Shown: positions 17,173-33,909, counted from the first letter of the stretch. The stretch is 39,908 bases of DNA from Deltaproteobacteria bacterium (GCA_013151915.1 JAADHJ010000025.1:1-39908), one strand, 5' to 3'. Translations and numbers: made by a program. The notes: a model not told the origin generated them from the letters alone.

Positions 17173-17400
17173 AAAATTGTTGGCTACAAGGGGTTTTCTG
17201 ATGGGCGTTCCGGCTGAAGATGCGCCCCACATGGCCCACTGATGGGTTATCTTGCGATGGATAAACGGAACGTGGTGGAGGGTTGCCTGCCAAAAACTAT
17301 TTTACAAGTAACACAACCGGGCCAAAAAAACAAACCAGGCCGCCCCGGTATCTGTTATCGTAATCCGGCAGCATATCGAAACTGTACAAAACGATGCAGG

Positions 17401-17466
17401 AAAATGACATTTTTCGCTTTCCGTGGAGTAAAAAGCCATGGATGGACTTTTTACGACCCTATCAAA
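17401..17466 (+). repeat. Dispersed structured repeat, copy c
   Basis: Contains AAAATGACATTTTTCGC, CCGTGG...CCATGG around AGTAAAAAG, and TGGACTTTTTACGACCCTAT. It ends 12 bases before the ATG of the FMN reductase gene, and its last bases lead directly into that gene's ribosome site AAAGGAAG. An upstream in-frame start for that gene would translate the repeat, so I rejected it. Confidence 0.85.
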
Positions 17467-17477
17467 GGAAGAACAAA

Positions 17478-18062
17478 ATGCTGATTATTGGAGTATCGGG
17501 GAGTCCAAGACGGGGCGGCAACTCCGACCGGGTCCTGGACGCTATTCTCGCCGGCGCCTCTGAAAGAGGAGCTGATACCGAGGTCCTGTACCTTTCCAGC
17601 ATGGAAATATCGTCGTGCATCGGTTGTGAACGCTGCCGAAAGGACAAGGTCTGCACGCAGTTTGCCGATGACCTGACACCGTATTATCCAAAGATCCGCC
17701 GGGCCGGGGGGATCATCCTGGTGACGCCGGTCTACAACTACAATATGACGGCCTGGATGAAGGCTTTCATCGATCGCCTGTACTGTTTTTACGACTTCGA
17801 CAACGAGCATCCTCGCGGTTGGTCAAGCCGCCTTGCCGGCCAGGGAAAGACAGCGGCCCTCGCTATCGTGGCCGAGCAGGTGGACCCGAAGGACCTCGGA
17901 GTCACCATGGAGGCGATGCGTCTGCCCATGAAAGCCCTGGGATACCGCATCGCCGGCGAGCTGGCCGTGCCGGGGGTATTTGAGGCCGGAGTCGTCGGGC
18001 ACCATCCTGAAGTATTGGATCAGGCGGCTCGGCTGGGCAGGAACCTGGCCGCTCACCCTTGA
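17478..18062 (+). CDS. NAD(P)H-dependent FMN reductase / flavodoxin-fold protein
   Basis: 194 residues from MLIIGVSGSPR; AAAGGAAG lies just upstream. The flavodoxin-like P-loop for FMN phosphate is GSPRRGGNSD. Then come the motif SCIGCERCRKDKVC and the flavin loop TPVYNYNMTAWMKAFIDR. This combination marks the iron-sulfur flavoprotein/WrbA-related FMN reductase family. The four cysteines in the CIGCERCRKDKVC loop (CxxCxxxxxC) could be an iron-sulfur site, as in the Methanosarcina Isf protein, or redox cysteines; the family contains both. It would reduce FMN or quinones with NAD(P)H in the cytoplasm. The histidine kinase follows 42 bases later on the same strand. Confidence 0.87.
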   Translation: MLIIGVSGSPRRGGNSDRVLDAILAGASERGADTEVLYLSSMEISSCIGCERCRKDKVCTQFADDLTPYYPKIRRAGGIILVTPVYNYNMTAWMKAFIDRLYCFYDFDNEHPRGWSSRLAGQGKTAALAIVAEQVDPKDLGVTMEAMRLPMKALGYRIAGELAVPGVFEAGVVGHHPEVLDQAARLGRNLAAHP

Positions 18063-18104: not shown

Positions 18105-20300
18105 ATGGTGAGCCGCAACAGGGATAAACGTCACGATACGGGCGCCGACATCCGGGAATCCCCATACCTCATCCTGTCCGCCGCTGCCTTGCTGGCCATG
18201 GTCTGTGTGGCGCTTTCTGTCATGGTTGCGTCCAACCAGCCATGGCTCGGTCTGAGTCTGCAGGCGGACGGCACACATGCCGGTGTCTTTGTCGATGGCG
18301 TGAAGGCCAAAAGCCCGGCCAGGCTCATCCTTACCCCCGGGGATTTGATCCTGTCCATTCGGTCCCTTTCGGGCAGCCCATTTAATTTCGAGGATTCCGA
18401 CCTGGTGGAGGACCCCGACGTCTTCCCGACCTTTAAAAAGTATAATGCCTTCCTTGATCGTCAGAGGGTGCTGGCCGGGATCCTCAGCGGGCCGTTGGTG
18501 GAGTTGACTCTCGCGGACGGGCGAAAGGTGAGGGTACAACCGGCCCGCTCCCGACCGCTTTCCTCATTTCCGTTAGATTTCTGGCTGCTCAACGGCATGG
18601 GCGTCATAATATTCATGATCGGCGCGGCCGTCTGGTCCGTGCGCAGACAAAATATGGCGGCCAGGATGTTTTTCTTCTCGGGCATGGGACTTCTCGTCAC
18701 GACAACGGCAATGGCGGTCATCGCCTCGAGGGAGATCGCCCTTGACCCGGACCTTCTGGCTACGATCCGTGAATTGTACCACGTGGGAAACAACGTATTC
18801 TCGGTCTTCGGCGTCGGTCTGCTTTTCCATTACCCCGGCCTCCTGGGCTCATTCCCGATGACCAGGGCGGTCGCGGTTCTGGCCTCCTTTTTCATCCTGA
18901 ACGAACAGTTTCAATGGACGGATATTCCGGGGCATACCGTGTTAATCCAGCCAGTCCTCTATTTTATTATGGGGGTTACGATAGCCGGACTCCAGTGGCG
19001 GCGCTCAAAAGGTCGGCCTGTCGACCGTGCGGCCCTCAAATATTTCATCATAGCGTTCATGGGGTTTGTTGGTCTGGCATTTTTTACCTACTTCGCTCCG
19101 GCTGCGTTGATGGGTCGAACCGTGGTCCCTGTATCGGCCGGACTGGGGTCGGTCACCCTGATGTATGTCGGGCTTGCCCTGGGCATCCTTCGATACCGTC
19201 TTTTCGACATCGACCGCTGGTGGTTCGGATTCTGGCTGTGGTTCCTGGCGGGTGTCAGTGTTCTGGTGGTGGACGGCATTCTGGCGTTCACCGTCACCCA
19301 CAGGCCGTCCGTCGTCCTTGCCCTGTCTCTTATCCTGGTGGGGTGGCTGTACTTCCCGGTACGCCAGTGGGTATGGGGAAGGTTCTACCAGGGTCCGAGG
19401 GACCGGATAAAACAGCATCTCCCGGTTCTCCTGTCGGGGTTGGTGAACCCCGGCATCAGCGAGAAGGATGCATGGGTCGGCGTCCTCAGGGATGTGTATC
19501 TGCCCCTTTCGTACCAGACCCTGGAAGGCCGAAACGCCTCTCCCAGGCTTGATAAATACGGCGAGATAATGCTGATCCCCACCCTGGATCGCACGGGAAC
19601 GGTGGAACTTCGGTTCGCCGACAGAGGCAGCCGACTCTTTTCCAGGGACGATATTGAACTGGCTGAAACACTAATATACATTGCCAGGACCACGGAGGAT
19701 CGTCTTGCCGGATTTAAAAGGGGCGTTGAGGAGGAGCGGAGGCGGATCATGCGGGATCTGCACGACGAGATCGGCGGGCGTCTCCTTTCCCTGGTACACG
19801 CAAAGAACACTCCGAGAAATACGCTTCTGGCCCGAAATGCCCTCAAAGCCCTTAAAGATATCATATACAGCATCAAACCATCCGGGGAGGTAACCATTGA
19901 GGAGGCGCTGGCGACGTGGCGTTATGACTTTATTCAGCGTTGTGAGGATGCCGGGGTTGCGGCGCATTGGGAAGATAGTATTCAAAAGCCCCACCGGCTT
20001 ATATCACCGCGGCAGGTGATCGATCTGTCCCGGGTGCTGTTTGAGGCTACGACAAACGCCCTCGTCCACGCCTCCCCACGCAACATCTGGGTCACGTGGG
20101 ACGGGGGTAAAAATCGGCTCTCCTGCATCGTTCGCAACGACGGGACAATTCCCGGTCGCGGGGAGATAAGATTTGGCAAAGGGATCCGGAACATGGAGAT
20201 GAGGGCCGGCGAGCTTGGCGGGCAATGCAGGTGCGAAGCGCTTCCCGACGAGGGGGTTTTCGAGGTTCGTTTGTCAATACCTACCGGAGATGGTAAGTGA
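18105..20300 (+). CDS. Membrane histidine kinase with PDZ-like sensor and 7-8 spans
   Basis: 731 residues. Layout: membrane span 1 (about 22-42); an extracytoplasmic PDZ-like domain (about 45-155, with WLGLSLQ and SPARLILTPGDLILSI); then seven or eight spans (about 160-415); a cytoplasmic linker; and a HisKA_3-type dimerisation region RRRIMRDLHDEIGGRLLSL with phospho-acceptor His553. The HATPase_c domain follows, with FEATTNALVHA (N box) and NDG...GKGIRNMEMRA. This is the NarX/DesK-like class that pairs with LuxR-type regulators, and exactly such a regulator is encoded next. The PDZ-like sensor suggests detection of a peptide or envelope protein state (inference). The ribosome site is weak. 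The gene lies between an FMN reductase and the regulator, and the secreted-protein run follows. Confidence 0.9.
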   Translation: MVSRNRDKRHDTGADIRESPYLILSAAALLAMVCVALSVMVASNQPWLGLSLQADGTHAGVFVDGVKAKSPARLILTPGDLILSIRSLSGSPFNFEDSDLVEDPDVFPTFKKYNAFLDRQRVLAGILSGPLVELTLADGRKVRVQPARSRPLSSFPLDFWLLNGMGVIIFMIGAAVWSVRRQNMAARMFFFSGMGLLVTTTAMAVIASREIALDPDLLATIRELYHVGNNVFSVFGVGLLFHYPGLLGSFPMTRAVAVLASFFILNEQFQWTDIPGHTVLIQPVLYFIMGVTIAGLQWRRSKGRPVDRAALKYFIIAFMGFVGLAFFTYFAPAALMGRTVVPVSAGLGSVTLMYVGLALGILRYRLFDIDRWWFGFWLWFLAGVSVLVVDGILAFTVTHRPSVVLALSLILVGWLYFPVRQWVWGRFYQGPRDRIKQHLPVLLSGLVNPGISEKDAWVGVLRDVYLPLSYQTLEGRNASPRLDKYGEIMLIPTLDRTGTVELRFADRGSRLFSRDDIELAETLIYIARTTEDRLAGFKRGVEEERRRIMRDLHDEIGGRLLSLVHAKNTPRNTLLARNALKALKDIIYSIKPSGEVTIEEALATWRYDFIQRCEDAGVAAHWEDSIQKPHRLISPRQVIDLSRVLFEATTNALVHASPRNIWVTWDGGKNRLSCIVRNDGTIPGRGEIRFGKGIRNMEMRAGELGGQCRCEALPDEGVFEVRLSIPTGDGK

Positions 20301-20310
20301 GGGAGTGTTG

Positions 20311-20952
20311 ATGCAAAGGGTTCTTGTTGTAGAGGACCACGATGATACGAGGCTCTGGTGGGAAGACCACATTTCCGAGGCCTTTCCCGAAGCAAAGGCC
20401 ATGGGAGCCGCGACCCTTGCCGAAGCCCGCGCCCTTCTGGAGCAGCATAAGTTTTCATTGGCCCTCGTTGATATCAACCTTCCTGACGGGTCCGGGATCG
20501 ACCTGGTGAAGGAGATGGGCGAGACGCACCCGGACACATACTGCGTCATTACGACAATTTTTGATGATGATACGCATATTTTTTCCGCTCTTAAAGCCGG
20601 GGCCATGGGTTACCTCATTAAGGAGCAGCCCCGGGATCTTCAGATCCGACAGCTTAAAGCCGTTCTCCACGGTCAGCCACCGCTGTCCCCTGGTGTGGCC
20701 CGGCGGGTTCTGGCCCACTTCTCCCGCTCGAACGATGCGCCTGAAGACACCGAGCCGTTGACCGACAGGGAAAAGGATGTCCTGCAGCTTATCGCAAAAG
20801 GGTTCTCACGCCCGGAAGTCGCCAACCTGCTCGGGCTGACCCCGAACACCGTGGCCAGTTATACCAAGGTCATCTACCAGAAGCTGAACATTTCACGGCG
20901 TGCGGAAGCCGTCATCGAAGGGGTTCGCCTGGGCCTCATCGACCCGTATTGA
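20311..20952 (+). CDS. LuxR/NarL-type response regulator
   Basis: 213 residues from MQRVLVVEDHDD, preceded by GAGGGAG; longer in-frame starts lie inside the kinase gene. The receiver domain has the acidic pair Glu8/Asp9 and the phospho-accepting Asp54 (LVDINLPDGSG). The C-terminal HTH of the LuxR type is PLTDREKDVLQLIAKG followed by RPEVANLLGLTPNTVASYTK. The kinase ends 10 bases upstream, so the two form one operon and very probably one phosphorelay. It would control transcription. A 14-bp palindrome 158 bases downstream, in front of the secreted-protein genes, is a candidate site (inference). Confidence 0.95.
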   Translation: MQRVLVVEDHDDTRLWWEDHISEAFPEAKAMGAATLAEARALLEQHKFSLALVDINLPDGSGIDLVKEMGETHPDTYCVITTIFDDDTHIFSALKAGAMGYLIKEQPRDLQIRQLKAVLHGQPPLSPGVARRVLAHFSRSNDAPEDTEPLTDREKDVLQLIAKGFSRPEVANLLGLTPNTVASYTKVIYQKLNISRRAEAVIEGVRLGLIDPY

Positions 20953-21190
20953 GTAATAGTCCAACGTCCAGAGTCCAAAGTCCAATGTTCTAACCCCCAA
21001 ACTCTCAAACTCTCAAACTAACTTCCCCCTCCGGATCACCCTCACCTGACCTCTCCCCTCAAGGGAGAGGAATTTACACCCATACCCCCTTACTTCGATA
21101 CGTATAACCCCCCCGATCGGGGGTAGTGCCCCCCTTTAGCAGTCCGGTATCCTTCCGTCCAAGTAGGGTTAAAAAAGCAAGGGAGGAAAA
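20953..21190. other. Intergenic region before the secreted-protein run
   Basis: No gene is seen. It starts with repetitive text built of the word GTCCAA (GTCCAACGTCCAGAGTCCAA). A CCTCTCCC/GGGAGAGG hairpin follows near 21050-21070, then the palindrome at 21110-21123, then a leader with the ribosome site AAGGGAGG before 21191. Confidence 0.6.
21110..21123. promoter_or_regulatory. Candidate operator, palindrome CCCCCGATCGGGGG
   Basis: A perfect 14-bp palindrome flanked on the right by TAGTGCCCCCC and on the left by ATACCCCCTTAC, so C5/G5 tracts occur repeatedly within about 50 bases. It lies 67 bases before the first gene of the secreted run. The strict symmetry suits a dimeric regulator such as the one encoded just upstream; binding is inferred. 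Confidence 0.45.
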
Positions 21191-21982
21191 ATGAACCGAT
21201 CCGCACTCTCAATTGGACTACCGCTTCTCACGGTTTTCGCCCTGGTGTTCTCGCCGGCGGTGTCGCAGGCCGCATGTGTGAAAAGGGCCCTCACGGCCGG
21301 TGAGCAGGCCTACTACGAACAGGTCAAAACCGTAATGGACAAGGCTCTACCTGCCCCGAAGAACTGGCGAAGGATAGATTCCTGGATGCACGTTCCCGAG
21401 ACGGTGTGCGAGGGGTTCGAGAAAAACCCCATCAAGTTCTTCGGTCAGCTCAAGTTCACGGAGATCACCGAGGTTGACCGGATCAGGGAGGAGATGGCCA
21501 GAAAACAGAAGGAGCGGGAGGAAAAGGTCATGGAGGCAAACAGCCGGGGAAACGTCGCGGAGGTCAGCCGCATTCAGAAGGAAATGCAGCAGGACGTTTC
21601 CAAAGACCTTGAAAGGCTACGGAAAGCCCAGGAAAAAGCGAGGAACGAACCCAAGCCGCTTCAGATGATCGCCAAGTTCACGGTGAACGACAAGCGCAAG
21701 GCCATAGGTAAAAAATTCGACGTCCCTGCTCTTCCCCACACAATCCGGACTTTTGAAGTGCTCCACTCCAAAGGTACTGAACGGGAGACGGTCTCAAAAA
21801 TACTTCTGATCGGCGGGTGGCAGGTAGAGGATTTTATGAAGAACTGGAACCTGATTCGACCCGATGCACCCTACGACGCTATCGGCGGCATTCACCTGAA
21901 ACTGTCCGGGAAAAGGCAGCCGGTGGAGGCCTATCTGTCCGGCCGCGCGGATATCGGGCTGATTGAGAGTGCGGCCAGATAG
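21191..21982 (+). CDS. Secreted hypothetical protein with coiled-coil
   Basis: 263 residues. A signal peptide ends near residue 27 (VSQA/AC). There are only two cysteines in the mature part (CVKRAL and TVCEGF), possibly forming a disulfide. Residues 95-155 are strongly charged and helical (EEMARKQKEREEKVME and KDLERLRKAQEKARNE), a likely coiled coil. The C-terminal third ends in a beta-rich stretch with SKILLIGGWQ and GGIHLKLSGKRQPVEAYLSG. I recognise no family. It is the first gene of a long same-strand series of envelope proteins and has an AGGGAGG ribosome site. It probably acts in the periplasm or on the outer surface. Confidence 0.8.
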   Translation: MNRSALSIGLPLLTVFALVFSPAVSQAACVKRALTAGEQAYYEQVKTVMDKALPAPKNWRRIDSWMHVPETVCEGFEKNPIKFFGQLKFTEITEVDRIREEMARKQKEREEKVMEANSRGNVAEVSRIQKEMQQDVSKDLERLRKAQEKARNEPKPLQMIAKFTVNDKRKAIGKKFDVPALPHTIRTFEVLHSKGTERETVSKILLIGGWQVEDFMKNWNLIRPDAPYDAIGGIHLKLSGKRQPVEAYLSGRADIGLIESAAR

Positions 21983-22009
21983 ATCTGCCGCCAGACCTGA
22001 AAAGGATGC

Positions 22010-22444
22010 ATGAAATGTGGGTGGAAAATGAAGAACATTAAATCCATAACCGTCGCCTTGTTTAGCCTCGGTTGCGTGCTTACGATATTTTCATTCGCCT
22101 GGGGAGCCCCCCCAAGCTGGAACGGGACCGGCAGTAATCCCGGGCCAACCCCAAACATCCTGTCAGCGCCGGCTTCTCGGCCTAAGGACTTAACATGCCC
22201 TAATGCTTACTCCGGGATCAATGGAGACATGTTGCCAACCAACTGGGAGACCGCGAATAAGGGCCTGCCTGCCCTTTTCATCACATCCCAGGTGCAGGAT
22301 CGGTACCTTTACTGCGTATACCGGATACCCACAGAAGGCGGGATGATCAATGCCAGTGTACACCGCCTCATTCCCAAGGGGGTCAAATGCATATCCGACG
22401 GAGCCGGGAGGTTCGAATGCCGCTCCAACGGCAGGCAGAACTGA
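22010..22444 (+). CDS. Small secreted hypothetical protein
   Basis: 144 residues with an N-terminal signal peptide (SITVALFSLGCVLTIFSFAWG, cleavage after about residue 32) and a mature chain containing four cysteines (TCPNAY, YCVYRI, KCISDG, ECRSN), probably two disulfides. The ATG at 22010 has AAAGGA 3 bases before it. The ATG at 22028 has GGTGG 4 bases before it and gives a tidier signal peptide, so either may be used. No family is recognised. The gene lies 27 bases after the coiled-coil gene and is therefore likely co-transcribed with it. Confidence 0.72.
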   Translation: MKCGWKMKNIKSITVALFSLGCVLTIFSFAWGAPPSWNGTGSNPGPTPNILSAPASRPKDLTCPNAYSGINGDMLPTNWETANKGLPALFITSQVQDRYLYCVYRIPTEGGMINASVHRLIPKGVKCISDGAGRFECRSNGRQN

Positions 22445-22502
22445 TCCGGCAGACTGGAAAATCCGTCTGAGGGTACACGTAATTTCGAAAGAGGAGAGGA
22501 CG

Positions 22503-23225
22503 ATGAACCGGAAAATACCAAGTCCCGCGATTTATCTGTCTCTGTCAGCCTTTATCCTGCTGTTTTCAGCCGTCTCTGCCTGGGCGTGGGGAACCCCACC
22601 GGAAGACCTTCCTCCGAAGAAGACGGTCACTATCTTCCAGTTTGACAGCACCGTCCCGGAGGTATCCCCGGCGTCAGCTACGGACATGTTCACGACTGCG
22701 CTGATCAAGACCCACGCGTTTACCGTTCTGGAGAGACAGAGGCTGGATGAGAGCGTCTACCAGGAAAAACAGTTGAACCAGGGGGGGACGACCACCGGTG
22801 ACGTGGCCAAGTATCGCCTGACAGGAGCAGATTTCATCTTCGTAGGAGTGATCACCGAGGCCAACGCTCAGGCTTCCAAAACAGGAGTCGCAGGAGCCTA
22901 CAAGGGTGTTGGGGTCGAAACCAGCGGAGAACATGCTGAGATAGGCCTCGATGTAAGAGTCCTGGACGCCAGAACAGGTGGTGTCCTCGATTCTGTGGAT
23001 GTCCGCAGGAAGATCAAGGAGGGCGGCTATTCTGTCTCCGGCCTGGGAAAACTGTTTGGAAAGAAAAAGCTGAAAGGGGCGAACCTGGGGATCGCCCATG
23101 ATCATAAGGACAGCATTGACAAGGCTCTTCGCGATTGCATTGAAGAGGCGGTGAATATTCTGGTGAGCCGGTATGAAGAGGAAGGCAGCAAAGACAATAG
23201 AAAGGAAAATAAGGAGAAAAAATGA
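22503..23225 (+). CDS. CsgG-like envelope protein
   Basis: 240 residues from MNRKIPSP, chosen because GAGGAGAGG precedes this ATG; the longer frame overlaps the previous gene without a ribosome site. A signal peptide ends near residue 28 (VSAWA). The core matches the CsgG/HfaB-like fold: VTIFQFDSTVPEVS, ATDMFTTALIKTHAFTVLERQRLDE, TGADFIFVGVITEAN and AEIGLDVRVLDARTGGVL. CsgG itself is an outer-membrane lipoprotein pore for curli. Here no lipobox Cys is present and no other csg gene is seen, so this may be a soluble periplasmic relative. The tail is basic and low complexity (EGSKDNRKENKEKK). The next gene overlaps by 4 bases (ATGA). Confidence 0.85.
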   Translation: MNRKIPSPAIYLSLSAFILLFSAVSAWAWGTPPEDLPPKKTVTIFQFDSTVPEVSPASATDMFTTALIKTHAFTVLERQRLDESVYQEKQLNQGGTTTGDVAKYRLTGADFIFVGVITEANAQASKTGVAGAYKGVGVETSGEHAEIGLDVRVLDARTGGVLDSVDVRRKIKEGGYSVSGLGKLFGKKKLKGANLGIAHDHKDSIDKALRDCIEEAVNILVSRYEEEGSKDNRKENKEKK

Positions 23226-24418
23226 ACCGGGTTATCAGAATAACCATTGTGTTGGCGATGTCTCTCTTGGTCCTTCCGGGAGCAGGAAAGGCCGGGCCGC
23301 TGAGAAATACCGGTCAATGGCGGGTGATGGAACTCCCGACCACCGGAAACTGGTTCGAGGGCCGGGCAGGCTACCGTCCCGGCTTCGCCCTGGGCCGGGG
23401 AAGCGCCTTCGGAAAGGGCCGTTACTCAATCTACCTGCTTGAGCTCGCCCCCGGCTCCAGTTACACCCTCGGCCTTCGGTATTCGTCCGGTGTCAAAAAC
23501 AAGCCCTCGGTCCTCCTGTACGACCGTTGGCCCCTGGACCCCTCGGCCAGGCGCTACAAACTGCCCGTGGGTCCGGTGATGCGGACCGACCCCGGTAAGA
23601 TCGAATACCGCTGGCGTTTAAGTGTCTCCGGACGAAGCCGGGGCAACCTAGCCTTTGTCGTGGTTCAGGCCGGTGCGGGCATTGCCGGGGCGAAGGGACG
23701 TTTTCGGCATTTCATGTACCTGACAACACCGGCAGTCCAGCCAAAGAATCGGCTCGGAACGGGGATCACCTACCTGCGGGGACCGTCCGATCTCATGCTG
23801 GGCGAGCCCTCCCCCGACATTCAGTACTTGGTGGAGTATCCGTTCAGCCGGGCCGGAAACCGCGGGGACCGGGAACACAGGGTCGCAGGCGAACTGATTG
23901 ACAACGGAGACTTCAGCCGCGGCCTCCGCCACTGGGAACTTTTCTCAGGAAACGGCGAATCCGGAGACAGCGGCCGGGTTTCCGTGGGCAACGAGGGCCT
24001 GCGTCTGGGAAACGAGGACACCGGAGATATCGCCGGGGTAAGGCAGACCGTAAAATGGTACGTCGGGGACATCCATTCGCTTGTGCTGGCAGCCGGCCTG
24101 AGGATCGACCGCGGCAAATCAGGGCGCTTCCAACAGGTGGACGATCCGCCGGTGCTCCAGATTGCTGTCTGTTACGCGGACGAGGAGAAAAGGGAGCACT
24201 GCGCGGATGACGCCTACATCCGGGAGTTCACGACCGACGGCGGGGCCCAGAGCAATGCCCGATTTACCCGGGTAGAAAACGGACGGTGGCACAACTTTGA
24301 GGACGATCTCATGGGCCTTTCCCCGCGGCCCGACGTCATTGAATCCGTCAGCATAACGGGTCTCGGCCTGAAGAACAGCGAGGCCTGGGTACAGTCGATC
24401 AGCCTTGTTGCAAGGTGA
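23222..24418 (+). CDS. Secreted hypothetical protein, probably beta-sandwich
   Basis: 398 residues with a signal peptide (VIRITIVLAMSLLVLPGAGKA, cleaved near residue 24). The chain is rich in Gly, Arg and aromatic residues and looks all-beta. The segment ELIDNGDFSRGLRHWELFSG is the usual opening of a carbohydrate-binding-module-like jelly roll, and a C-terminal strand set (VESVSITGLGLKNSEAWVQS) closes the fold. The N-terminal 200 residues may be a second beta domain. Its start overlaps the CsgG-like gene by 4 bases, so the two are translationally coupled and their products probably work together. No named family; the binding role is inferred. Confidence 0.78.
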   Translation: MNRVIRITIVLAMSLLVLPGAGKAGPLRNTGQWRVMELPTTGNWFEGRAGYRPGFALGRGSAFGKGRYSIYLLELAPGSSYTLGLRYSSGVKNKPSVLLYDRWPLDPSARRYKLPVGPVMRTDPGKIEYRWRLSVSGRSRGNLAFVVVQAGAGIAGAKGRFRHFMYLTTPAVQPKNRLGTGITYLRGPSDLMLGEPSPDIQYLVEYPFSRAGNRGDREHRVAGELIDNGDFSRGLRHWELFSGNGESGDSGRVSVGNEGLRLGNEDTGDIAGVRQTVKWYVGDIHSLVLAAGLRIDRGKSGRFQQVDDPPVLQIAVCYADEEKREHCADDAYIREFTTDGGAQSNARFTRVENGRWHNFEDDLMGLSPRPDVIESVSITGLGLKNSEAWVQSISLVAR

Positions 24419-24474
24419 TTCGGAAAAGCTATCTGCTGTAGTAAAAACACGTTTCAAAGTGAAGGAGGGAAAGG

Positions 24475-25644
24475 ATGAAATCGGGTAAATGGATAAAATT
24501 GGTGTTAACCGGATTGACCGTGATGACACTGGCCTTCAGTTCGGCGGAGGATTCTTTCGCCGGCAAGGCGCAGTTCAAGGCCGGCATTACTCCGCCCACC
24601 CTTAGCCTCTCGGTCAATTCCCAGGGAGGAATCACCGGCACGAAAACGGTAAAAATGGATATTCACAGGATCCAGGTTGGGTCAAGTTACGCCTGCAACA
24701 AGATTCAGACAGTACAAGTACTCAGAGGAGGACAACCTGTACCTCTCGATACGCAAAAAGTCCTGCTAACATGGGCAGGATTTCCTAAAAATCGGGGCAG
24801 ATGTTATTTCGATATCAACTTGACGGTGCAGCCATTCAGCGATGACGAGATTCGTGGCGCGTGCCAGAATGCCTCGGGAGCCCAGAGCCTGGTAGCGGAG
24901 GGTATGGTAACAGCGTGGAACAAGGATCCCTCCTATATCGATTATATCAGACACTTAAGATCCACAGGGGGAACGGGAGGACTTGATCCAAAAAGCCGAG
25001 CTCCTGTAACATTCGCCGCCAACGTCACCTGTGGCACAGGCGGAGGAAGTCGTATCTATGTTCCGCCAATAACACCTCCGGGTGGTGTGACAACTACATC
25101 GGGAGGCGCTGCAGGCAACGTCGGCGGATCGACCCAGTGCGACCTTACCGGGACATGGAATGGATTTAACAACGGCACTCGGGGGGAAGGCTGGAAATTC
25201 AGCCAGATCTTCACGAGCGGCGGAGCTGTCACCTACCGCGCCACCCACCTGTCGCCGCAGGGATCTCTCACCAGTCTCGAGGGGACCATGGTCAGGGCGC
25301 AGTCGGGAAACTACCTTTTCTACACTCTCGCAACATCGATCCCGGGTGCGGGAGGAGCATACCAGGCGTCAACAATGAAGAGCTACGATGCCGACGCGAG
25401 CTGCAGCAAACTCACGCAGAGGCAACTTGCCAACTCAACATCAGGCATGTTCGTCCAACCGGGCAACTATTGGCTGCAACGGGTCGGTGCGCCTCTCAGC
25501 CCAGTTCGTTCCAAGGTTGGCAGGCCCATAGGCAGGACCAACACCTTCAGGCCCAGGAAAGCTCCCACCATGCCCGGCGATACCTATCAGCCTGGGCCGA
25601 ACACCCCCAGGCCTGGGACGATGCCGAAGTGGCCCGGTAAATAG
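24475..25644 (+). CDS. Secreted hypothetical protein with Pro/Gly-rich tail
   Basis: 389 residues. A signal peptide ends near residue 29 (AEDSFA). Residues 35-185 form a beta-rich region with cysteines (YACNK, RCYFD, GACQN, VTCGTG). Residues 190-215 are a Gly/Pro/Thr linker. Residues 220-320 make a second domain (CDLTGTWNGFNNGTRGEGWK and VTYRATHLSPQGSLTSLEG) that resembles small beta-barrel extracytoplasmic domains with a TGTWxG entry. The last 50 residues are a Pro/Arg-rich disordered tail (RPRKAPTMPGDTYQPGPN). No family is named. AAGGAGGGAAAGG precedes the ATG. It is part of the secreted-protein run. Confidence 0.78.
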   Translation: MKSGKWIKLVLTGLTVMTLAFSSAEDSFAGKAQFKAGITPPTLSLSVNSQGGITGTKTVKMDIHRIQVGSSYACNKIQTVQVLRGGQPVPLDTQKVLLTWAGFPKNRGRCYFDINLTVQPFSDDEIRGACQNASGAQSLVAEGMVTAWNKDPSYIDYIRHLRSTGGTGGLDPKSRAPVTFAANVTCGTGGGSRIYVPPITPPGGVTTTSGGAAGNVGGSTQCDLTGTWNGFNNGTRGEGWKFSQIFTSGGAVTYRATHLSPQGSLTSLEGTMVRAQSGNYLFYTLATSIPGAGGAYQASTMKSYDADASCSKLTQRQLANSTSGMFVQPGNYWLQRVGAPLSPVRSKVGRPIGRTNTFRPRKAPTMPGDTYQPGPNTPRPGTMPKWPGK

Positions 25645-25691
25645 AACAATTAAGCGTGATGATGAGAACCCGGATTGCTGGAGGACCGATC

Positions 25692-27203: not shown

Positions 27204-27318
27204 TCAGATGAACGAATTTTCCTGGCCTATGAGAAAAAAAGCCAGAGAAACAACCACCTACAGTCAGTTCCACACTCTTTTGGCAAGGCACAGTTAACGC
27301 GCCTACAGGGAGTCTGAA

Positions 27319-27402
27319 ATGAAAACAAGGGTGAGTATGATATGTATCTCCGCTTTATCACCACTCCCGGCGGCAACTAGAAAACCAGGAGGAGGAAAAT
27401 GA
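27319..27402 (+). CDS. Possible 27-codon leader ORF
   Basis: ATG at 27319 follows AGGGAG by 6 bases and opens a frame (MKTRVSMICISALSPLPA...) of 27 codons whose TGA overlaps the next gene's ATG (ATGA at 27399). It looks like the start of a signal peptide. It may be a leader that couples translation, or the relic of a lost gene start. The remaining bases of 27204-27318 hold no gene. Confidence 0.35.
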   Translation: MKTRVSMICISALSPLPAATRKPGGGK

Positions 27403-28157
27403 ACACTTCGATTTCTAAATCTGTTTTAGCCGGCATAGCCGTCGCCATCGTTTTGCTGGGCGGCCAATGGGCATCGGCCGGCCCCGCCCCGCTTTATCCC
27501 GGGCCGGCAGTGGAAGGGGAACAGCGAGTAGTCGTTTTAGAAGGCGAAGGGGGGAACACCACACGGATCTTCAGGATCTTTTATACTCGCGATCCCCTCA
27601 AAAAGGTGGCGGCGTATTACGAAGGTAAAATGCCGCAAAAAACAGCATCTTCAGCCACTGAGGCGACTTTTGACGGTTCCCCTGGGACACCCCTCGAATA
27701 CGGTGCCGTCAAAGTATGGCGCCCGGCAGCCGTGCTGTCGGAGTTCGACCTGTTCGATCCGCTTAAGGAGGAGATGGGTAAGGAGCAGGCGGGTATGGGG
27801 AACGGTCATCACACGCAGCATGACCTGAAGGCGCTGCAGGCCAGATACGGATACCTGGCTGACGAGGCGTTTTTTCCAGGTTTTTCCCCCAGGGAAAGAT
27901 TGAAAGGGTGCCGGAAGAAAACGGGCAGTGGTATCGGCAAGGCGAAGCAGGACCAGGCATCGCTCCAGGCCAGGATCCAGGAATTGGCCAGCCAGGGCCG
28001 CTTTGGCGAGATGCAGCAGCTTTTATCACAGGCGCAGGGCGTGACATCGAATACGAACCAGGCCATGTCTGTCAGTCACTGGGACGAATGGACAGGATGC
28101 CTCGACGAACTTGATGCAGGAGCGTTCCGCACCCAGATAAATATACGCATAAAGTAG
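27399..28157 (+). CDS. Secreted hypothetical protein
   Basis: 252 residues with a signal peptide (LAGIAVAIVLLGGQWASAG). After a short Pro-rich stretch comes a domain with TRIFRIFYTRDPLKKVAAYYEGKMPQ. It shares the pattern of a short acidic opening, then a phrase like PxKxxxxYY, with the two following genes, so all three may carry one domain family. The C-terminal half has a charged helical region and two cysteines (GCRKK, GCLDELD). There is a strong ribosome site GGAGGAGG. Possibly periplasmic. No function is assigned. Confidence 0.75.
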   Translation: MNTSISKSVLAGIAVAIVLLGGQWASAGPAPLYPGPAVEGEQRVVVLEGEGGNTTRIFRIFYTRDPLKKVAAYYEGKMPQKTASSATEATFDGSPGTPLEYGAVKVWRPAAVLSEFDLFDPLKEEMGKEQAGMGNGHHTQHDLKALQARYGYLADEAFFPGFSPRERLKGCRKKTGSGIGKAKQDQASLQARIQELASQGRFGEMQQLLSQAQGVTSNTNQAMSVSHWDEWTGCLDELDAGAFRTQINIRIK

Positions 28158-28264
28158 GAACCCTTTTCCCCGGGCTGGCAGGTACGCAAGGGGGAAGGTG
28201 ACAGCCGTTTGTCGGGAACGAAAGGGAAAAATTCAACAACTTCAAACCTTTTTGGAGGACAAAG

Positions 28265-28693
28265 ATGAAAAAACTATTTGGTGTCCTGTTGGCATTGCTC
28301 ATTTTCCTTGTTTGCTCAGTACCTCCGGCAGCCCATGCTGAGGACCTCATCGCCGCCGCCCATGCTGAGGACTTCTCGGCCGCCCGGCAGGAAATCCTTA
28401 AAAACACCGGGATTCCTGTATACCCGGGTGCCAGCTACACAACCGGAGATGACGATGTCGCCACGATGATGTGGTTCAAATCCATGGATTCGCCGAAAAA
28501 GATAATGGACTGGTACAAGAGGAACCTCTCCGGCTGGCTGGAGATGACGGTGAACGGTTCCAGGGTTCTCTACAAGGGCCCCGGGAAGATCGAGGCGAAG
28601 GATCTCAACAACAGGCCTTATCTCTGGGCCAGGACCACCAGTGAGAACATTGCCTTGAAGGATTCTCAAATAACGATACGGATACCCAAATAA
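28265..28693 (+). CDS. Small secreted protein, paralog of the next gene
   Basis: 142 residues. The signal peptide (LFGVLLALLIFLVCSVPPAAHA) is followed by an imperfect tandem duplication, AHAEDLIAA then AHAEDFSAA, encoded by a 27-base repeat that straddles the likely cleavage site. The mature domain runs ILKNTGIPVYPGASYTTG, then VATMMWFKSMDSPKKIMDWYKRNL, and aligns with the next gene's ILKEAGIPVYKGAEFING and SFYRSKF. The pattern (pI-Y-PGA...fks.dsp..v..fY+..l..W) is one I associate with small uncharacterised periplasmic domains. GGAGG lies upstream. Its role is unknown. Confidence 0.8.
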   Translation: MKKLFGVLLALLIFLVCSVPPAAHAEDLIAAAHAEDFSAARQEILKNTGIPVYPGASYTTGDDDVATMMWFKSMDSPKKIMDWYKRNLSGWLEMTVNGSRVLYKGPGKIEAKDLNNRPYLWARTTSENIALKDSQITIRIPK

Positions 28694-28711
28694 GACAGAA
28701 AGGTGGATGAC

Positions 28712-29134
28712 ATGAAAAAGATAATGAGGTTGACTCTGGCAAGCTGTCTGCTGTTTGTTTTTGCGGCCGGGATCGCTTTGGCGGCTGATCTTCCGGCCAA
28801 GGACGTGAAGATCTTAAAGGAAGCGGGAATCCCCGTCTACAAGGGTGCGGAATTTATAAACGGCGGCCTTGGCGACGAGAATGTGGGCGCCCGTTTCGCC
28901 AGTTCGGCACCGGTGGAGGATGTGCGTTCATTTTACCGATCCAAGTTTCCATCCTGGGCCCTTAATGCAGAATACGGGGCCTGGATCCTCTATGTAGGCA
29001 AGCCCGGGAGCGGACCTGCCGCCTATATGGGCAAGCAGCAGGTGTCGGTGAAGAAAAACGGGAATCTCCCCTCATGGTTCGGCCTTGCCAAGAACATGAC
29101 GACCGAAATCATCATCGTGGTGCCTCCTGAATAG
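28712..29134 (+). CDS. Small secreted protein, paralog of the preceding gene
   Basis: 140 residues from MKKIMRL; AAAGGTGG lies 6 bases upstream, better than the GTG three codons earlier. A signal peptide (LTLASCLLFVFAAGIALA) is followed by ILKEAGIPVYKGAEFINGG, FASSAPVEDVRSFYRSKF and WILYVGKPG. This matches the preceding protein over most of its length. The pair is 18 bases apart, so they are a tandem duplication with divergence. It probably folds as a single periplasmic domain. Nothing suggests catalysis. Its role is unknown. Confidence 0.8.
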   Translation: MKKIMRLTLASCLLFVFAAGIALAADLPAKDVKILKEAGIPVYKGAEFINGGLGDENVGARFASSAPVEDVRSFYRSKFPSWALNAEYGAWILYVGKPGSGPAAYMGKQQVSVKKNGNLPSWFGLAKNMTTEIIIVVPPE

Positions 29135-29245
29135 TTGAGACCGTAAGACGCCAAAGCGATTGGTTTCTCGCAAAGGACGCGGAGAAAGAACTGGGGTTAC
29201 AGCCGTAGGGCGCCAGGGCTATGGGCCTCACGCGGAGACGCAGGG

Positions 29246-29318
29246 ACGCAGAGAATGGATTAAATTGAATAAGAGGGGATCAAAACCCTTTTTTGGTTTT
29301 CCTCTGTGACCTCTGCGT
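29246..29318. repeat. Nested hairpin, possible transcript end
   Basis: ACGCAGAG (29246-29253) pairs with CTCTGCGT (29311-29318). Inside, AGAGG (29272-29276) pairs with CCTCT (29301-29305) and AAAACC (29282-29287) pairs with GGTTTT (29295-29300). The surrounding 276-base space 29135-29410 is otherwise repetitive text (CGCAAAGGACGCGGAGAAAG, GTAGCGAACGAGCGAGAGG) with no gene. Confidence 0.5.
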
Positions 29319-29410
29319 ACTCTAGTGAGCGTAGCGAACGAGCGAGAGGAAATGATTTTAAGTTGCGAAGGTGCCGGCGGTTGCATGGGGGCACAAAGAG
29401 GAGGAGAAAA

Positions 29411-29722
29411 ATGTCAGACGTAATTGATTACAAGATCCACGGGAACGACATGCAGATAGTTGAGATCGAACTGGACCCGGGCGAGGGGGTCCAGGCAGAG
29501 GCCGGGGCCATGATGTTCATGGAGGGCGGCATCGAGATGGCGACGGCCGCCAGCGGCGAGGGCCTGTTCCTGGCCACCCTCACCGGCCCGGGCAAGGTAT
29601 ACCTCCAGGGGCTGCCCCTTTCGCGGTTGGCCGACCGCATCATGGCAGCCTCGGGCGGAGGCAGCGATAAGGGCGAAGAGCGCATGGGCGGCCTTATGGG
29701 CAAGCTGCTGGGCGGAGACTGA
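29411..29722 (+). CDS. Minimal AIM24/TIGR00266-like protein with missing middle
   Basis: 103 residues from [11 protein letters not shown], preceded by GAGGAGGAG. Residues 1-43 match the opening of the AIM24 (TIGR00266) family ([32 protein letters not shown]). Residues 49-80 match its far C-terminal part ([26 protein letters not shown]). Members I recall are about 230-270 residues, with a central block of roughly 140-150 residues between these pieces. Here the two ends are joined in frame at about MATAASGEG. The family forms a beta-sandwich of unknown biochemical role and is found in bacteria, archaea and mitochondria. No signal peptide is present, unlike all its neighbours. Whether the shortened form folds is uncertain. 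The tail is Gly-rich ([11 protein letters not shown]). Confidence 0.8.
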
Positions 29723-29742
29723 TCGATGACGGAGGGGAGATC

Positions 29743-30663
29743 ATGAGGATAAAAGGAATGAAGCGAATCGTCTTGATGCTAGCCATGGCCACAGCCGTAA
29801 TTCTCACCTGTGCCGGGACCGGCTGGGCCGATGAGGGTAAAGACCATCCCCTGATCAAGCGATATCCGGGCTCCGAAATAGGGAAATATTTCGTAAAGGA
29901 TTTTGACGAGGTCCAGATGCCCACAGGCAAGTCAGGGCGAAAAGGCTTTGCCGATACGATCACCGTCAAGGGCAAGGTCACGGGCATCATCTACCGCAAC
30001 CCTAAAAAGAGGTCGACCCTGGAGATATACGAAAACTACGAGCAGGCCATGAAAAGCGCCGGGTTCGAGTTTCTATTCACCTGCGCGGACAAGGCCTGCG
30101 GTGTGCCCGGGGTAGCAGACCCCCTCCTCAGCTACAGGTGGGCATGCTTCGAACAGCGCCACGCCACCGGCAAGCTTGCCAGGCCGGAGGGCGATATCTT
30201 CGTGAATCTCCACGTCTGCAAAGGTATCAACAAAACGTTCCTGGGAATCGTGGAGTCAAAGCCCATGGAAACGGGACTGGTCAAGGTTGATGCCAATGCG
30301 CTGGCAAACGAGATCGACCGCACAGGGCACGCTTCCATCTACGGGATCTACTTTGACACCGACAAGACGGACGTGAAACCCGAGTCCGAGCAGGCGTTAG
30401 GCGAGATCGCGCAACTCATGAAGAACAGGCCCGACCTGAAGCTTTTCGTGGTTGGCCACACCGACAGCGTGGGGAACCTTGACTACAACAAGGACCTTTC
30501 CATACGCCGCGCAAGAGCCGTGGTAGAGGTTCTTGCCGGTAAGTACGATATCCCCAGGAGCAGGCTGCGGGGCGAAGGGGTCGGCCCACTTGCGCCGGTC
30601 CTGGCAAACACCAGCGACGGCGGGCGGGCCAAGAACCGGCGGGTTGAGCTTGTGAAGCAATAG
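29743..30663 (+). CDS. OmpA-like protein with N-terminal DUF4892-like domain
   Basis: 306 residues. The start MRIKGMKR has GGAGGGGAG before it. A signal peptide ends near residue 29. Residues 32-190 carry HPLIKRYPGSEIGKYF, TLEIYENYEQAMKSAGFEF and paired cysteines (CADKACG), resembling the DUF4892 domain that often precedes OmpA in this arrangement. Residues 195-306 are an OmpA peptidoglycan-binding domain: GIYFDTDKTDVKPES, LFVVGHTDSVGN, DLSIRRARAVVEVL and KNRRVELV. The Asp and Arg in TDSVG...NRRVEL are those that hold diaminopimelate. It would link the outer membrane or periplasm to the cell wall. It follows the AIM24-like gene by 20 bases. Confidence 0.9.
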   Translation: MRIKGMKRIVLMLAMATAVILTCAGTGWADEGKDHPLIKRYPGSEIGKYFVKDFDEVQMPTGKSGRKGFADTITVKGKVTGIIYRNPKKRSTLEIYENYEQAMKSAGFEFLFTCADKACGVPGVADPLLSYRWACFEQRHATGKLARPEGDIFVNLHVCKGINKTFLGIVESKPMETGLVKVDANALANEIDRTGHASIYGIYFDTDKTDVKPESEQALGEIAQLMKNRPDLKLFVVGHTDSVGNLDYNKDLSIRRARAVVEVLAGKYDIPRSRLRGEGVGPLAPVLANTSDGGRAKNRRVELVKQ

Positions 30664-30675
30664 GAGGATTTTCCC

Positions 30676-30726
30676 ATGACGATAAAAAGATTCACTCTTT
30701 TTGCACTTCCTCCTGGTTTCCAGTAA
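30676..30726 (+). pseudogene. Broken signal-peptide start (possible remnant)
   Basis: TAGGAGG is followed by ATG at 30676 and a 16-codon frame (MTIKRFTLFALPPGFQ) that stops at once. A +1 shift after about codon 8 would continue with FLHFLLVSSNADQDQDQ, which reads like the rest of a signal peptide and a mature start, ending at TGA near 30772. This suggests a small secreted gene killed by a frameshift. The support is only composition and a strong ribosome site. Confidence 0.3.
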
Positions 30727-30806
30727 CGCCGACCAGGACCAAGATCAGACAGCCTGTGTGGGTAGGTGCACCTGATTTCGGAAACCCAAAGAAGGAGGAC
30801 TGATAC

Positions 30807-32030
30807 ATGAAAACACTAATTAAAAGAGGATGGGTTTCAATTACGGTCATTGTTTTGGGGTTTGCCCTGTTTGCTATAACAGCCTTAAGTGCTACTCGGG
30901 CTGTTGCGGACGTTGTTTATCAAGACAATCGCGAGACTATCTCGGTAACATTGTTGCCATACAATCAGGAATACTCGTATTGCGAAGATGGGTCGTTTTC
31001 GCCCAAAGACTTCGTTGTCCTGGGTTACGTGAGCCGGGATAAATCAGGTGTTTGCACCAAGAAAATCTATTCACTTGGCATGACAGGCAGCGAAGGTGTG
31101 AAATGGCTTAGCAAACCCGCCTGCCGATTTGACAATGAACAAGTGGACTTCCATCCTTATTCTAGTGGGACGCTTTACAATGTGTGTAAGAACAAGGGTC
31201 CGATTGACGTAACAATTGAACAACCGCTCAAAATAAGCATGTACGACAAGAAAAACCGTCTGGTCCGGGAGGTAAGTGCAGGTTCGGCCACCGCTCTGGT
31301 ACACTGCCCGGAAATAGTACCGGCCCATCCTCCAACTGGATCCGCGCCGCGAGTTCTCACGGGCAGCAGCTGTACCCGCGGTATTGACTGTCCTCCACGT
31401 AACAACTCCATGGCTCTTGGCGGAAATCGAGGCGGAGGAACTCAGGGAAACACTTCGTCGCAGCCAATTTGCACCCAAACGGCTTCCGAAGCCGGAACTG
31501 AGCAACCTGCGAATGCAATTGATCCGATTCCGCGGACATGGCAGAAACCGCGAGTCGTGAACAGGGTGCCGCTGGCCGGTGAACGTACCGTGAGTTCGCC
31601 ACGTATTAAGGCACTCCCACAACGTGCCAAGCCGGTAACGCCACAATGGCAGGCTCCACGCCCCGTGAACAGGGGGCCGGTGGCGGTGGCACGGACAGCG
31701 AGTTCCCCCGGGGTCAGGGCTCCAGCGCCGGGTGCCAGGTCTGTCACCACTTCAAGGCAAACACCCGGACAAAGGGGAATAATTGTTGGCACAGCACGGG
31801 AGTCTGGCACCAGAGGGATTGTGGTTGGCACATGTCGGGATCTTCAGAAACGGCCGATACGTAATCCCGTTGTTGGCAATGACGGGACTGGGAGACTTCT
31901 GTTTCCTTTGTCCGATGGACGCACGATGGTGCTTCCTGACGGAATATACAAGGATAACAGCGGTATCAGAATACATATGCTCGGTGGGCGCATCGTGATG
32001 GTCGACGGTATTCTCCCCCGCAGACGGTAG
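30807..32030 (+). CDS. Secreted hypothetical protein with two 36-residue repeats
   Basis: 407 residues. GAAGGAGGA precedes the ATG. A signal peptide ends near residue 35 (TRAVA). An N-terminal cysteine-containing domain (about 36-180) has YSYCEDGSFSPKDFVVLGYV, GVCTKKIYSLGM, PACRFDNE and YNVCKNKG. Residues 245-316 are two exact-length 36-residue repeats of the form WQxPRxVNRxPxAxxRTxSSP (31539-31646 and 31647-31754). Then comes a short doubled motif, RGIIVGTARESGT and RGIVVGTCRD. The C-terminal domain, SDGRTMVLPDGIYKDNSGIRI and GGRIVMVDG, is beta-rich. The middle is probably disordered, and its repeats suggest a spacer. Codon use is more AT-rich near the start than in neighbours. No function is assigned. 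Confidence 0.75.
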   Translation: MKTLIKRGWVSITVIVLGFALFAITALSATRAVADVVYQDNRETISVTLLPYNQEYSYCEDGSFSPKDFVVLGYVSRDKSGVCTKKIYSLGMTGSEGVKWLSKPACRFDNEQVDFHPYSSGTLYNVCKNKGPIDVTIEQPLKISMYDKKNRLVREVSAGSATALVHCPEIVPAHPPTGSAPRVLTGSSCTRGIDCPPRNNSMALGGNRGGGTQGNTSSQPICTQTASEAGTEQPANAIDPIPRTWQKPRVVNRVPLAGERTVSSPRIKALPQRAKPVTPQWQAPRPVNRGPVAVARTASSPGVRAPAPGARSVTTSRQTPGQRGIIVGTARESGTRGIVVGTCRDLQKRPIRNPVVGNDGTGRLLFPLSDGRTMVLPDGIYKDNSGIRIHMLGGRIVMVDGILPRRR

Positions 32031-32063
32031 TGGCGACAAAGTCTTGGGGTCGGACCCCACTAC
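32027..32063. repeat. Palindromic repeat after the 30807 gene
   Basis: GTAGTGG (32027-32033) pairs with CCACTAC (32057-32063), and inside lies GGGGTCGGACCCC (32046-32058), a 13-base palindrome with a central G. Such GGGGTCGGACCCC text is often seen at the edge of mobile elements (from memory). Confidence 0.6.
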
Positions 32064-32166
32064 TCAGGAACAATTTTGCGAAAGGATGCCCGCTGAAAAA
32101 GAAAAACCCCACCGCCGCATAGTCCGCTTGCGCTTCTCAAACAGCTTGAGGAACGAAAACAAAAAG

Positions 32167-32214
32167 CGGACAGTTCATTTGCTACAGAACCGGACAATTC
32201 TATTTGTTGCTAAC
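32167..32214 (+). mobile_element. Possible insertion-sequence end remnant
   Basis: Two imperfect direct repeats 24 bases apart, CGGACAGTTCATTTGCTAC (32167-32185) and CGGACAATTCTATTTG with TTGCTAAC (32191-32214). I recall similar end sequences from ISNCY-type elements. No transposase is recognisable; an open stretch just upstream (about 32099-32213) has a transposase-tail-like basic composition, but the evidence is thin. Confidence 0.3.
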
Positions 32215-32387
32215 ACAGGCTGGAGGGTTTAAGCTGGTTAACCGGGGACGGCATCCTGGTCAAGAACGACATGAAGACTACGAGCGGGGGCCGGTCAATG
32301 ACGGTGAAAACCGAGCTCTCCGACCTGAAGGTGGGGAGTCAGGACCCGTCCCTTTTCGAGGTGCCACAGGGATATAAAAAGTGGAAT
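32214..32387 (+). pseudogene. 3' fragment of a DUF4412-like gene
   Basis: The frame opens after a TAA at 32211 and encodes WLTGDGILVKNDMKTTSG, MTVKTELSDLKVGSQDPSLF and EVPQGYKKW. This matches the C-terminal end typical of DUF4412 proteins, and the intact neighbour at 32449 ends PASTFGVPKGYMKI in the same way. The first two thirds are missing, and the normal stop after GYKKx is lost, so the frame runs on out of phase into the next gene. The breakpoint coincides with the possible insertion-sequence end at 32167-32214. Confidence 0.7.
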
Positions 32388-32448
32388 GCCGGGTGGGTTC
32401 ACGGGCGGCATGACGCGGTCCGGGAGATAGTGACTCCGAAAGGAGATC

Positions 32449-33198
32449 ATGATGAAGATGAGGATTATGAAAACATTCAGCATGACCGTGGTCCTGCTGG
32501 CGCTGACTGCCCTTCCCGCCCATGCCGGGTGGGTCGCGACAACCCAGGAGGACGTGTCCTATTACGGCAATGGTCTCCTGAAGCAGGTCCCGTCTTCCCA
32601 GGAGGGAGGACCAGAATCGATCATGAACTTCGCGAAGGGCACCATGACCATGGTGGACCATGGCTCACGCACATATACCACCTTCAAGTTCGAGGAGTTC
32701 TGTGCATTTCTCACGAAGATGTACGCTGATGCCCCACCGAATGTGCTTGAAATGGTAAAACAGATGAACCAGTCCAGGCCGAAACCGAATGTGACAATAA
32801 AAAAGATCGGCAAAGGGGAGACCATCGCCGGGTACGCGACAACCAAATACCAGGTCGACAACAACGGTCAGCCTGAAAGAATAGTATGGATGGCCGAGAA
32901 TAGCCGTTTCAAGAGTTTTGCCGCCGCATTCTGGAAACAGGCGTCAGACGGCGTCAGGAAGATGAGACAGTGCGATGATATTGGGATAAGCGGCGAAGCG
33001 GTGGACACATCCGCGGCCTACCTTGACCTGATGAAAAAAGGCTGGCTCATGAAGGAAGAGCTCGTAAATGAGAACGAGATGGGCGCGGCATCAGGGCCCG
33101 TGGTGAAGCTGGTTGAGAAGAACCTTCCGGCCTCCACTTTCGGGGTCCCGAAAGGGTACATGAAAATCCCCCTCGCACAGTTCAACATAGGCAATTAG
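32449..33198 (+). CDS. DUF4412-like secreted protein
   Basis: 249 residues. The first ATG is used because GGAG is 5 bases away. A signal peptide ends near residue 26 (TALPAHA). The mature protein has the DUF4412 arrangement: an early strand with a colourless probe-like YYGNGLLKQV, GTMTMVDHGSRTYTTFKFEEF, the exposed linker MVKQMNQSRPKPNVTIKK, then GKGETIAGYATTKYQVDNNGQ, RIVWMAENSRF and the terminal FGVPKGYMKI. The family is periplasmic or outer-membrane linked and has an unsettled function; its fold resembles LolA/LolB-type lipid carriers (inference). A truncated relative lies directly upstream. Confidence 0.82.
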   Translation: MMKMRIMKTFSMTVVLLALTALPAHAGWVATTQEDVSYYGNGLLKQVPSSQEGGPESIMNFAKGTMTMVDHGSRTYTTFKFEEFCAFLTKMYADAPPNVLEMVKQMNQSRPKPNVTIKKIGKGETIAGYATTKYQVDNNGQPERIVWMAENSRFKSFAAAFWKQASDGVRKMRQCDDIGISGEAVDTSAAYLDLMKKGWLMKEELVNENEMGAASGPVVKLVEKNLPASTFGVPKGYMKIPLAQFNIGN

Positions 33199-33330
33199 TC
33201 GCCCGGACATAACGGGGTTGACGGTAACAGCTCTTTAAAAATGTTAAACAATCCTGGTTTCTTATTGGAAATCTTTCCGGTAAGATGCTAACAGAATATA
33301 GGGGTTAACCATATTGCAAGGAGGATTCGG

Positions 33331-33909
33331 ATGAAAAAAACAGGTGTAGTGTTTCTCAGTTGCCTTTTTTCGCTACTGTTCGCATCCTCGGTATTCGCCA
33401 GGGGGGGGACCTATGTAGCGCTTCGCGGCGGCGGATCATTCCTCAACAATGCGGATTATCTGGGGACACTGGATTTTGACACCGGTCTCGATGTCTCTGT
33501 TGCTGTCGGCTACAATTATATCCCCGGCCGGGTCGAGATCGAACTCGGGTCAAGGAACAACAGTTTCAGCTGCGGTGCTACCGACTGCCAGGATACAGCT
33601 TTAAGCCTTATGTTTAATACCTACGCCGAGTTCTACGACCAGCACATAGGTAGTATGAACATAAGCACGTTCATCGGCGGCGGATTGGGCATGTCCAGGG
33701 TCGCCTTAAATGTCTTCGGCGGAGACAATACCGATCTGGTTTTCTCCTACCAGATTACCTTCGGGGTTGGTCACGAACTGTCCGACACGATGACCCTCGA
33801 TATCGGATACCGGTATTTTGCGACTGAAGATCCCAAATTTCAGAATGGAACGGTGAGCATCGAGAACCGGGGGAGCACCCTTTTTCTCGGGTTACGGCTG
33901 GAGATCTAA
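33331..33909 (+). CDS. Small outer-membrane beta-barrel protein
   Basis: 192 residues with a strong AAGGAGG and a signal peptide ending near residue 23 (SSVFA). The mature chain has about eight alternating strands, opening with GGTYVALRGGGSFL and continuing with VSVAVGYNYIPGRVEIELGSR, FIGGGLGMSRVALNVFG, LDIGYRYFATED and the last strand TLFLGLRLEI. This suits an eight-strand OmpA/OmpW-type barrel in the outer membrane. One CxxxxxC pair (CGATDC) may form a disulfide in an outer loop. It is the last gene of the run and ends overlapping the convergent SGNH gene by 4 bases. Confidence 0.85.
   Translation: MKKTGVVFLSCLFSLLFASSVFARGGTYVALRGGGSFLNNADYLGTLDFDTGLDVSVAVGYNYIPGRVEIELGSRNNSFSCGATDCQDTALSLMFNTYAEFYDQHIGSMNISTFIGGGLGMSRVALNVFGGDNTDLVFSYQITFGVGHELSDTMTLDIGYRYFATEDPKFQNGTVSIENRGSTLFLGLRLEI

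Follow-up and report, generated by a model that had tools for sequence, protein, structure and literature searches.

The window, a stretch of 39,908 nucleotides, is contig C25 of a 2.27 Mb deltaproteobacterial genome in 60 contigs. Within it, genes for an FMN reductase (17394-18062), a sensor histidine kinase (18105-20300, + strand, 731 aa) and a LuxR/NarL-type response regulator (20308-20952, + strand, 214 aa) are followed by 14 open reading frames (ORFs), all on the + strand, that extend from 21191 to 33909; the next gene, for a GDSL hydrolase, lies on the opposite strand. About fourteen consecutive same-strand genes had been described here in an earlier note on this DNA, in agreement with our annotation.

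The kinase combines an N-terminal PDZ-like extracytoplasmic region and multiple transmembrane (TM) segments with DesK/NarX-type HisKA_3 and HATPase domains. Both of the latter matches fall below the Pfam cut-off (HisKA_3, E 0.005; HATPase_c, E 0.018); by PDB search, the catalytic region is of the DesK type, resembling DesK and NarX/UhpB. Of the kinase with a PDZ-like sensor proposed earlier, the kinase stands, whereas the PDZ match is weak (E 0.038) and was obtained with the orthologue from genome G011 only. The regulator, as had been proposed, is of the LuxR type (Response_reg and GerE domains), and it is 82-86% identical across genera. A possible likeness is to the ComP-ComA type, in which a HisKA kinase is likewise partnered with a LuxR-type regulator; in Bacillus ComP, which has many TM helices, a PDZ-like loop occupies the corresponding position, between TM1 and TM2 (PMC9620489). 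The likeness has limits: no ComQ or ComX was identified, and PDZ is detected weakly here.

A strict palindrome reported ahead of the gene run was confirmed at 21110-21123 (CCCCCGATCGGGGG), between the regulator and the first gene of the cluster. It is present once in the genome, and a single copy, CCCCCAATCGGGGG, occupies the same interval in each of two relatives, G001 and G004. The nine other class genomes searched contain no copy, the contigs of two of our genomes (G010 and G011) stopping short of the palindrome position. It is naturally read as a candidate site of the regulator; it could also be a hairpin or terminator at the 3' end of the kinase-regulator transcript. In G004, a tandem repeat of the heptamer CTTACCC (L051:14950-15030) separates the regulator gene from the palindrome, and the stretch leading up to the candidate operator may therefore vary in length.

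Signal peptides had been noted on nearly all genes of the run, and we found a Sec-type signal peptide (hydrophobic core and signal-peptidase motif) in 13 of the 14 ORFs, the AIM24-like one being the exception. None of the 14 has a convincing lipobox, both calls being crude and rule-based. Export of the cluster proteins by Sec is thus predicted with good support. Several starts had been said to overlap the preceding gene; only one clear overlap, the 4 bp shared by csgG and u3, survived inspection, the others being artefacts of over-long ORF starts. The run is interrupted by gaps of 130-420 bp, which points to more than one transcript. Internal promoter-like sites are little above the shuffled control, and internal terminator-like sites are fewer than in that control.

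Pfam profiles confirmed the earlier family assignments (CsgG, PASTA, OmpA/DUF4892, DUF4412 and a small barrel), and eight proteins, u1 to u8, matched no Pfam family, in line with the several unrecognised proteins reported before. The run opens with u1 (21191-21982), a new secreted family with a paralogue elsewhere in the locus in G001, G010 and G011, and u2 (22010-22444), a small secreted Cys protein and a core gene. The CsgG-like protein (22503-23225) matches Pfam CsgG with 98.1 bits (E 5e-28) and a CsgG structure in the PDB (E 2e-9), and is 91% identical to its G001 orthologue (dN/dS 0.08). Its sole Cys is residue 212 of 240, and it has no lipobox; the predicted structure was too poor to use (mean pLDDT 48). 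The adjoining u3 (23222-24418) ends in a jelly roll resembling carbohydrate-binding modules, closest to CBM16 (TM 0.65 across this domain, where pLDDT is about 70-88). Outside this domain the model is poor, and whole-model matches to Cry proteins and vicilins were disregarded (TM below 0.3). The csgG and u3 genes are also adjacent, with short gaps, in G001 and G010. Next come u4 (24475-25644), a two-part secreted protein whose N-terminal half has diverged strongly in G001, and the PASTA protein (25692-27203), in which PASTA (E 4.5e-8, N-terminal part only) is followed by a Pro/Thr/Gln-rich stalk and an exchangeable C-terminal domain.

The second half of the run contains u5 (27399-28157), whose first 36-38 residues are those of the leader described below, u6 (28265-28693) and u7 (28703-29134, with the true start probably at 28712). 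The last two are small secreted paralogues; a relationship of u5 to them is supported (probability 94%), and one of the DUF4892/OmpA N-terminus is not (probability 3%). Lone members of the u6/u7 family occur outside the locus at G011:C195, G008:C100 and G002:C1:308976; two of the three lie in kinase-negative genomes, and the family thus extends beyond the locus. An AIM24-like ORF (29411-29722) precedes a DUF4892-like protein with an OmpA peptidoglycan-binding domain (29743-30663; OmpA E 5e-17, DUF4892 E 7.7e-7), the secreted, Cys-rich u8 (30807-32030), a secreted DUF4412 protein (32449-33198, E 4.7e-8) and a small outer-membrane beta-barrel (33331-33909, OMP_b-brl E 3.9e-9).

Gene order proved conserved in relatives. 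The set is syntenic in G001, G010 and G011, and partly in G004, and so is not scattered in other species. In G001, from the same genus, contig C6 reads fmnR-HK-RR-(u6-like)-u1-u2-csgG-u3-u4-PASTA-u5; the last 127 bp of C6 are also the first 127 bp of contig C23, which goes on with a u1-like gene, u6, u7, a pentapeptide-repeat protein, more proteins carrying the leader described below, u8 and DUF4412. The G010 locus (MAG SZUA-178) lies on three contigs joined by identical 91-bp overlaps and reads u2-csgG-u3-u4-PASTA-494-aa protein-u1-like-u5-u6-like-u6 (interrupted)-u7-four leader proteins-DUF4412. Two contigs with a 141-bp overlap carry the G011 locus, PASTA-u1-like-...-u6-type genes-u7-leader proteins-u7/OmpA chimera-DUF4412, and G004 shows HK-RR-u2-csgG ahead of a masked stretch; the part of G004 that consists of N (C3, up to base 120000) was excluded. 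The recurring set, with exceptions, is HK-RR-u2-csgG-u3-u4-PASTA (N-terminus)-u5-u6-u7, and its core order is common to three genera. Kinase orthologues are found in five of the 12 class genomes sampled, all from one family; PASTA, u3, u4, u1 and the leader were detected in these five alone, and the locus is missing in the other seven. No match to u1 or u4 was found in about 105 genomes from other families, the genomes from outside the class being a sample and not a census.

The leader comprises about 80 residues, a signal peptide and a stalk of the NLPxWGGxTTTNQPQPIQ type, ahead of differing C-terminal regions. It is joined to pentapeptide repeats once in G001 and twice in G010, to a 245-274-aa "QDECVL" type in G001, G010 and G011, to a 478-aa type and a 329-aa type in G010, and to a u4-like type in G011; u5 and others share its first 30-38 residues only. 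The leader profile matches four of 386 genomes, all kinase-positive, and within this locus alone. The PASTA protein behaves similarly: N-terminus and stalk are common to the species and the C-termini differ, the window and G001 having the same domain there, G010 a different sequence and G011 none. Downstream of the gene in the window, a fossil tail (GEYDMYLRFITTP, 27318-27380, + strand), recognised by a translated match only, corresponds to the end of the G010 C-terminal module (GEYNMYLRFITSP), and a tail of the G010 type persists downstream of the G001 gene (DNA 85% identical over 151 bp). The stalk probably varies in length. In G011 it includes a tandem array whose units, each about 135 bp long, are 83-89% identical (L014:6706-7587). 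The 494-aa protein of G010 (L015:1648-3132) is secreted and has the motifs IISHGGSDG and HHTSCWGS, which by eye are reminiscent of the paired His-Gly and Cys motifs in clan CD (caspase-like) peptidases; it has no Pfam or PDB sequence match.

Synonymous divergence from G001 is uneven along the locus. Three flanking genes and the kinase gene have dS values of 0.45-0.58, similar to the PASTA C-terminus (0.57) and u8 (0.51), and the regulator gene is somewhat raised (0.94). From u1 to u7 values reach 1.1-2.3 (u2 1.85, u3 1.40, u4 2.33, u5 1.44), except in csgG (0.72) and the PASTA N-terminus (0.82); several cluster genes are thus two to four times as divergent as their neighbours, and the bootstrap intervals of u1, u2, u3, u4 and u5 do not overlap that of the kinase. 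Between G001 and G010 the difference is reversed for u5, with a dS of 0.37 (0.26-0.49) vs 2.27 for the kinase. The simplest reading is that alleles have been exchanged between lineages, and in the case of u5 between genera; some pairs of fast genes called orthologous may in truth be paralogous, an error that would likewise raise dS. Orthologous pairs have dN/dS ratios of 0.05-0.36, values of 0.5-0.6 appearing solely in paralogue comparisons. With no orthologous pair above 0.36, gene-level positive selection was rejected; purifying selection indicates that the surviving genes encode proteins that matter.

Debris of lost genes lies between them. What had been taken for an AIM24-like mini-protein does belong to that family (E 1.5e-15); it retains profile positions 1-39 of 205 and an extreme C-terminal scrap, and with the core deleted it is a remnant. 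No intact AIM24 was found in the 12 class genomes, and in G001 the first 24 AIM24 codons run into the final part of ompA. On its 5' side the window copy is homologous to the 5' region of the gene that encodes the pentapeptide-leader protein in G001 and G010. This homology ends at the ribosome site, so the probable event is deletion of a block flanked by two similar ribosome sites. An apparent gene at 32271-32729 (orfX) was rejected, being a DUF4412 C-terminal fossil (32234-32413, + strand) whose parent gene is open in G001 and G011. The G011 chimera joins the signal region of u7, in frame, to the C-terminal two thirds of the DUF4892-like/OmpA protein. Another decaying copy is u6 in G010 (C83, L091:6300-6732), broken by TGA with an apparent frameshift. 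Between ompA and u8, at 30676-30725 of the window, a ribosome site and ATG lead into a brief signal-like beginning (MTIKRFTLFALPPGF) with an immediate stop; a gene has probably been lost here.

We conclude that the locus is real and restricted to this lineage, that it is linked to its two-component pair, and that it is no fixed machine but a recombining mosaic. The earlier note had seen in it an assembled envelope structure, which does not fit parts that are swapped, fused, deleted and lost between species: in a modular set changing in this way, many members cannot be obligate subunits. Its remark that no known set fits was borne out, since no tested assembly system matched (Pfam, NCBIfam, PADLOC) beyond single domains. 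We give a probability of about 0.55 to the reading of a recombining locus of Sec-exported envelope or surface proteins under two-component control, with the CsgG-like protein as a candidate channel. In such a system, the kinase would sense an extracytoplasmic cue and the regulator would act at the CCCCCRATCGGGGG site. The cluster proteins would be exported by Sec; PASTA and OmpA domains belong to families that bind peptidoglycan, and these parts would hold the wall, while u3 may hold glycan. The u3 jelly roll, the csgG/u3 overlap and the precedent of HfaB lead us to infer that the CsgG-like protein may serve its secreted neighbours as outer-membrane exit or anchor, as proposed for HfaB. Variable C-termini would be displayed outside the cell, and new versions would be rewarded there as partners (surfaces, glycans, phages, predators) change. 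What the comparisons do show is the mosaic itself, in which signal-peptide/stalk leaders, coding regions and C-terminal domains are duplicated, swapped between genera, fused and deleted. A more specific version, possible though rather improbable in full, is a class-specific surface diversification system in which a ComP-like pair would turn on, via a unique operator, a CsgG-like exit and a set of leader-stalk proteins, their displayed C-termini being reshuffled as recombination acts on leader and ribosome-site sequences held in common.

Much of the gene content would also suit an envelope-maintenance regulon, in which the kinase senses damage and induces periplasmic proteins that bind peptidoglycan or membrane, with no external display. 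PASTA, OmpA, barrel and DUF4412 proteins are all present, and the CsgG-like protein, having no lipobox and a weak LpoB-like match, would act like LpoB or a periplasmic adaptor. Genes of this kind are expected to be vertically inherited and stable, however, whereas here C-termini are swapped, genes are lost between sister species and seven of 12 class genomes lack the locus, which makes this explanation unlikely. The fossils, fusions and patchy presence could instead mark a hot spot of insertion and decay, where exported genes, unrelated and sharing no function, come and go through recombination-prone intergenic regions. We consider this quite improbable: the genes that survive are under purifying selection, three genera have a like core order, the cluster was seen only alongside the kinase, and the leader is confined to the locus. 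Least probable of all is an antagonism locus, in which constant N-termini deliver exchangeable toxic C-termini and leave old tips orphaned. The exchange at the PASTA C-terminus with a displaced tail in two species, and the clan CD-like motifs of the G010 494-aa protein, speak for it; but Pfam and NCBIfam identified no toxin family, PADLOC matches were generic or due to chance, the exchanged tip is followed by u5 rather than a small immunity gene, and the proteins carry signal peptides with no known delivery system.

The polymorphic toxin loci (CDI, Rhs, MafB) nevertheless share a constant N-terminus, an exchangeable C-terminus and a displaced old tip with the locus, and both the PASTA protein and the leader family have the first two. 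They differ in that no toxin domain with an adjacent immunity gene, and no known delivery domain, was found here (Pfam/NCBIfam, PADLOC), and in the several leader proteins in one row. We class the locus as a variant among the modular, diversifying surface-protein loci. Such diversification has been described chiefly in pathogens and in toxin systems; the present uncultured lineage displays constant leaders, swapped C-termini, apparent cross-genus allele exchange and visible debris. Eight protein families without a Pfam match gain a common context, and the tie to a single kinase, with a single regulator and candidate operator, makes regulation and the mechanism of exchange testable.

Two systems with CsgG-like proteins invite comparison. 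Curli (csgBAC-DEFG) also have a CsgG-domain protein behind a LuxR-type regulator and adjoining secreted proteins; here, however, the regulator carries a receiver domain and is paired with a cognate kinase. Membership fails on the CsgA/CsgB amyloid repeats, on the CsgE/CsgF partners (no CsgA, B, C, E or F relatives among the cluster proteins by Pfam/NCBIfam) and on CsgG itself, an outer-membrane lipoprotein in curli. In the Caulobacter holdfast anchor HfaA-HfaB-HfaD, the CsgG-like HfaB is required to place HfaA and HfaD at the surface (PMC6707917). Its role is a working analogy for the u3, u4 and leader proteins; no HfaA, HfaD or holdfast genes were found, and identity with HfaB was rejected (20.9 bits vs an equivalog cut-off of 300, E 1.7e-4). 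A second CsgG-family protein encoded by the window's genome, at G000:C32:13109-13693, scores 144.7 bits against Pfam CsgG, above the cluster copy.
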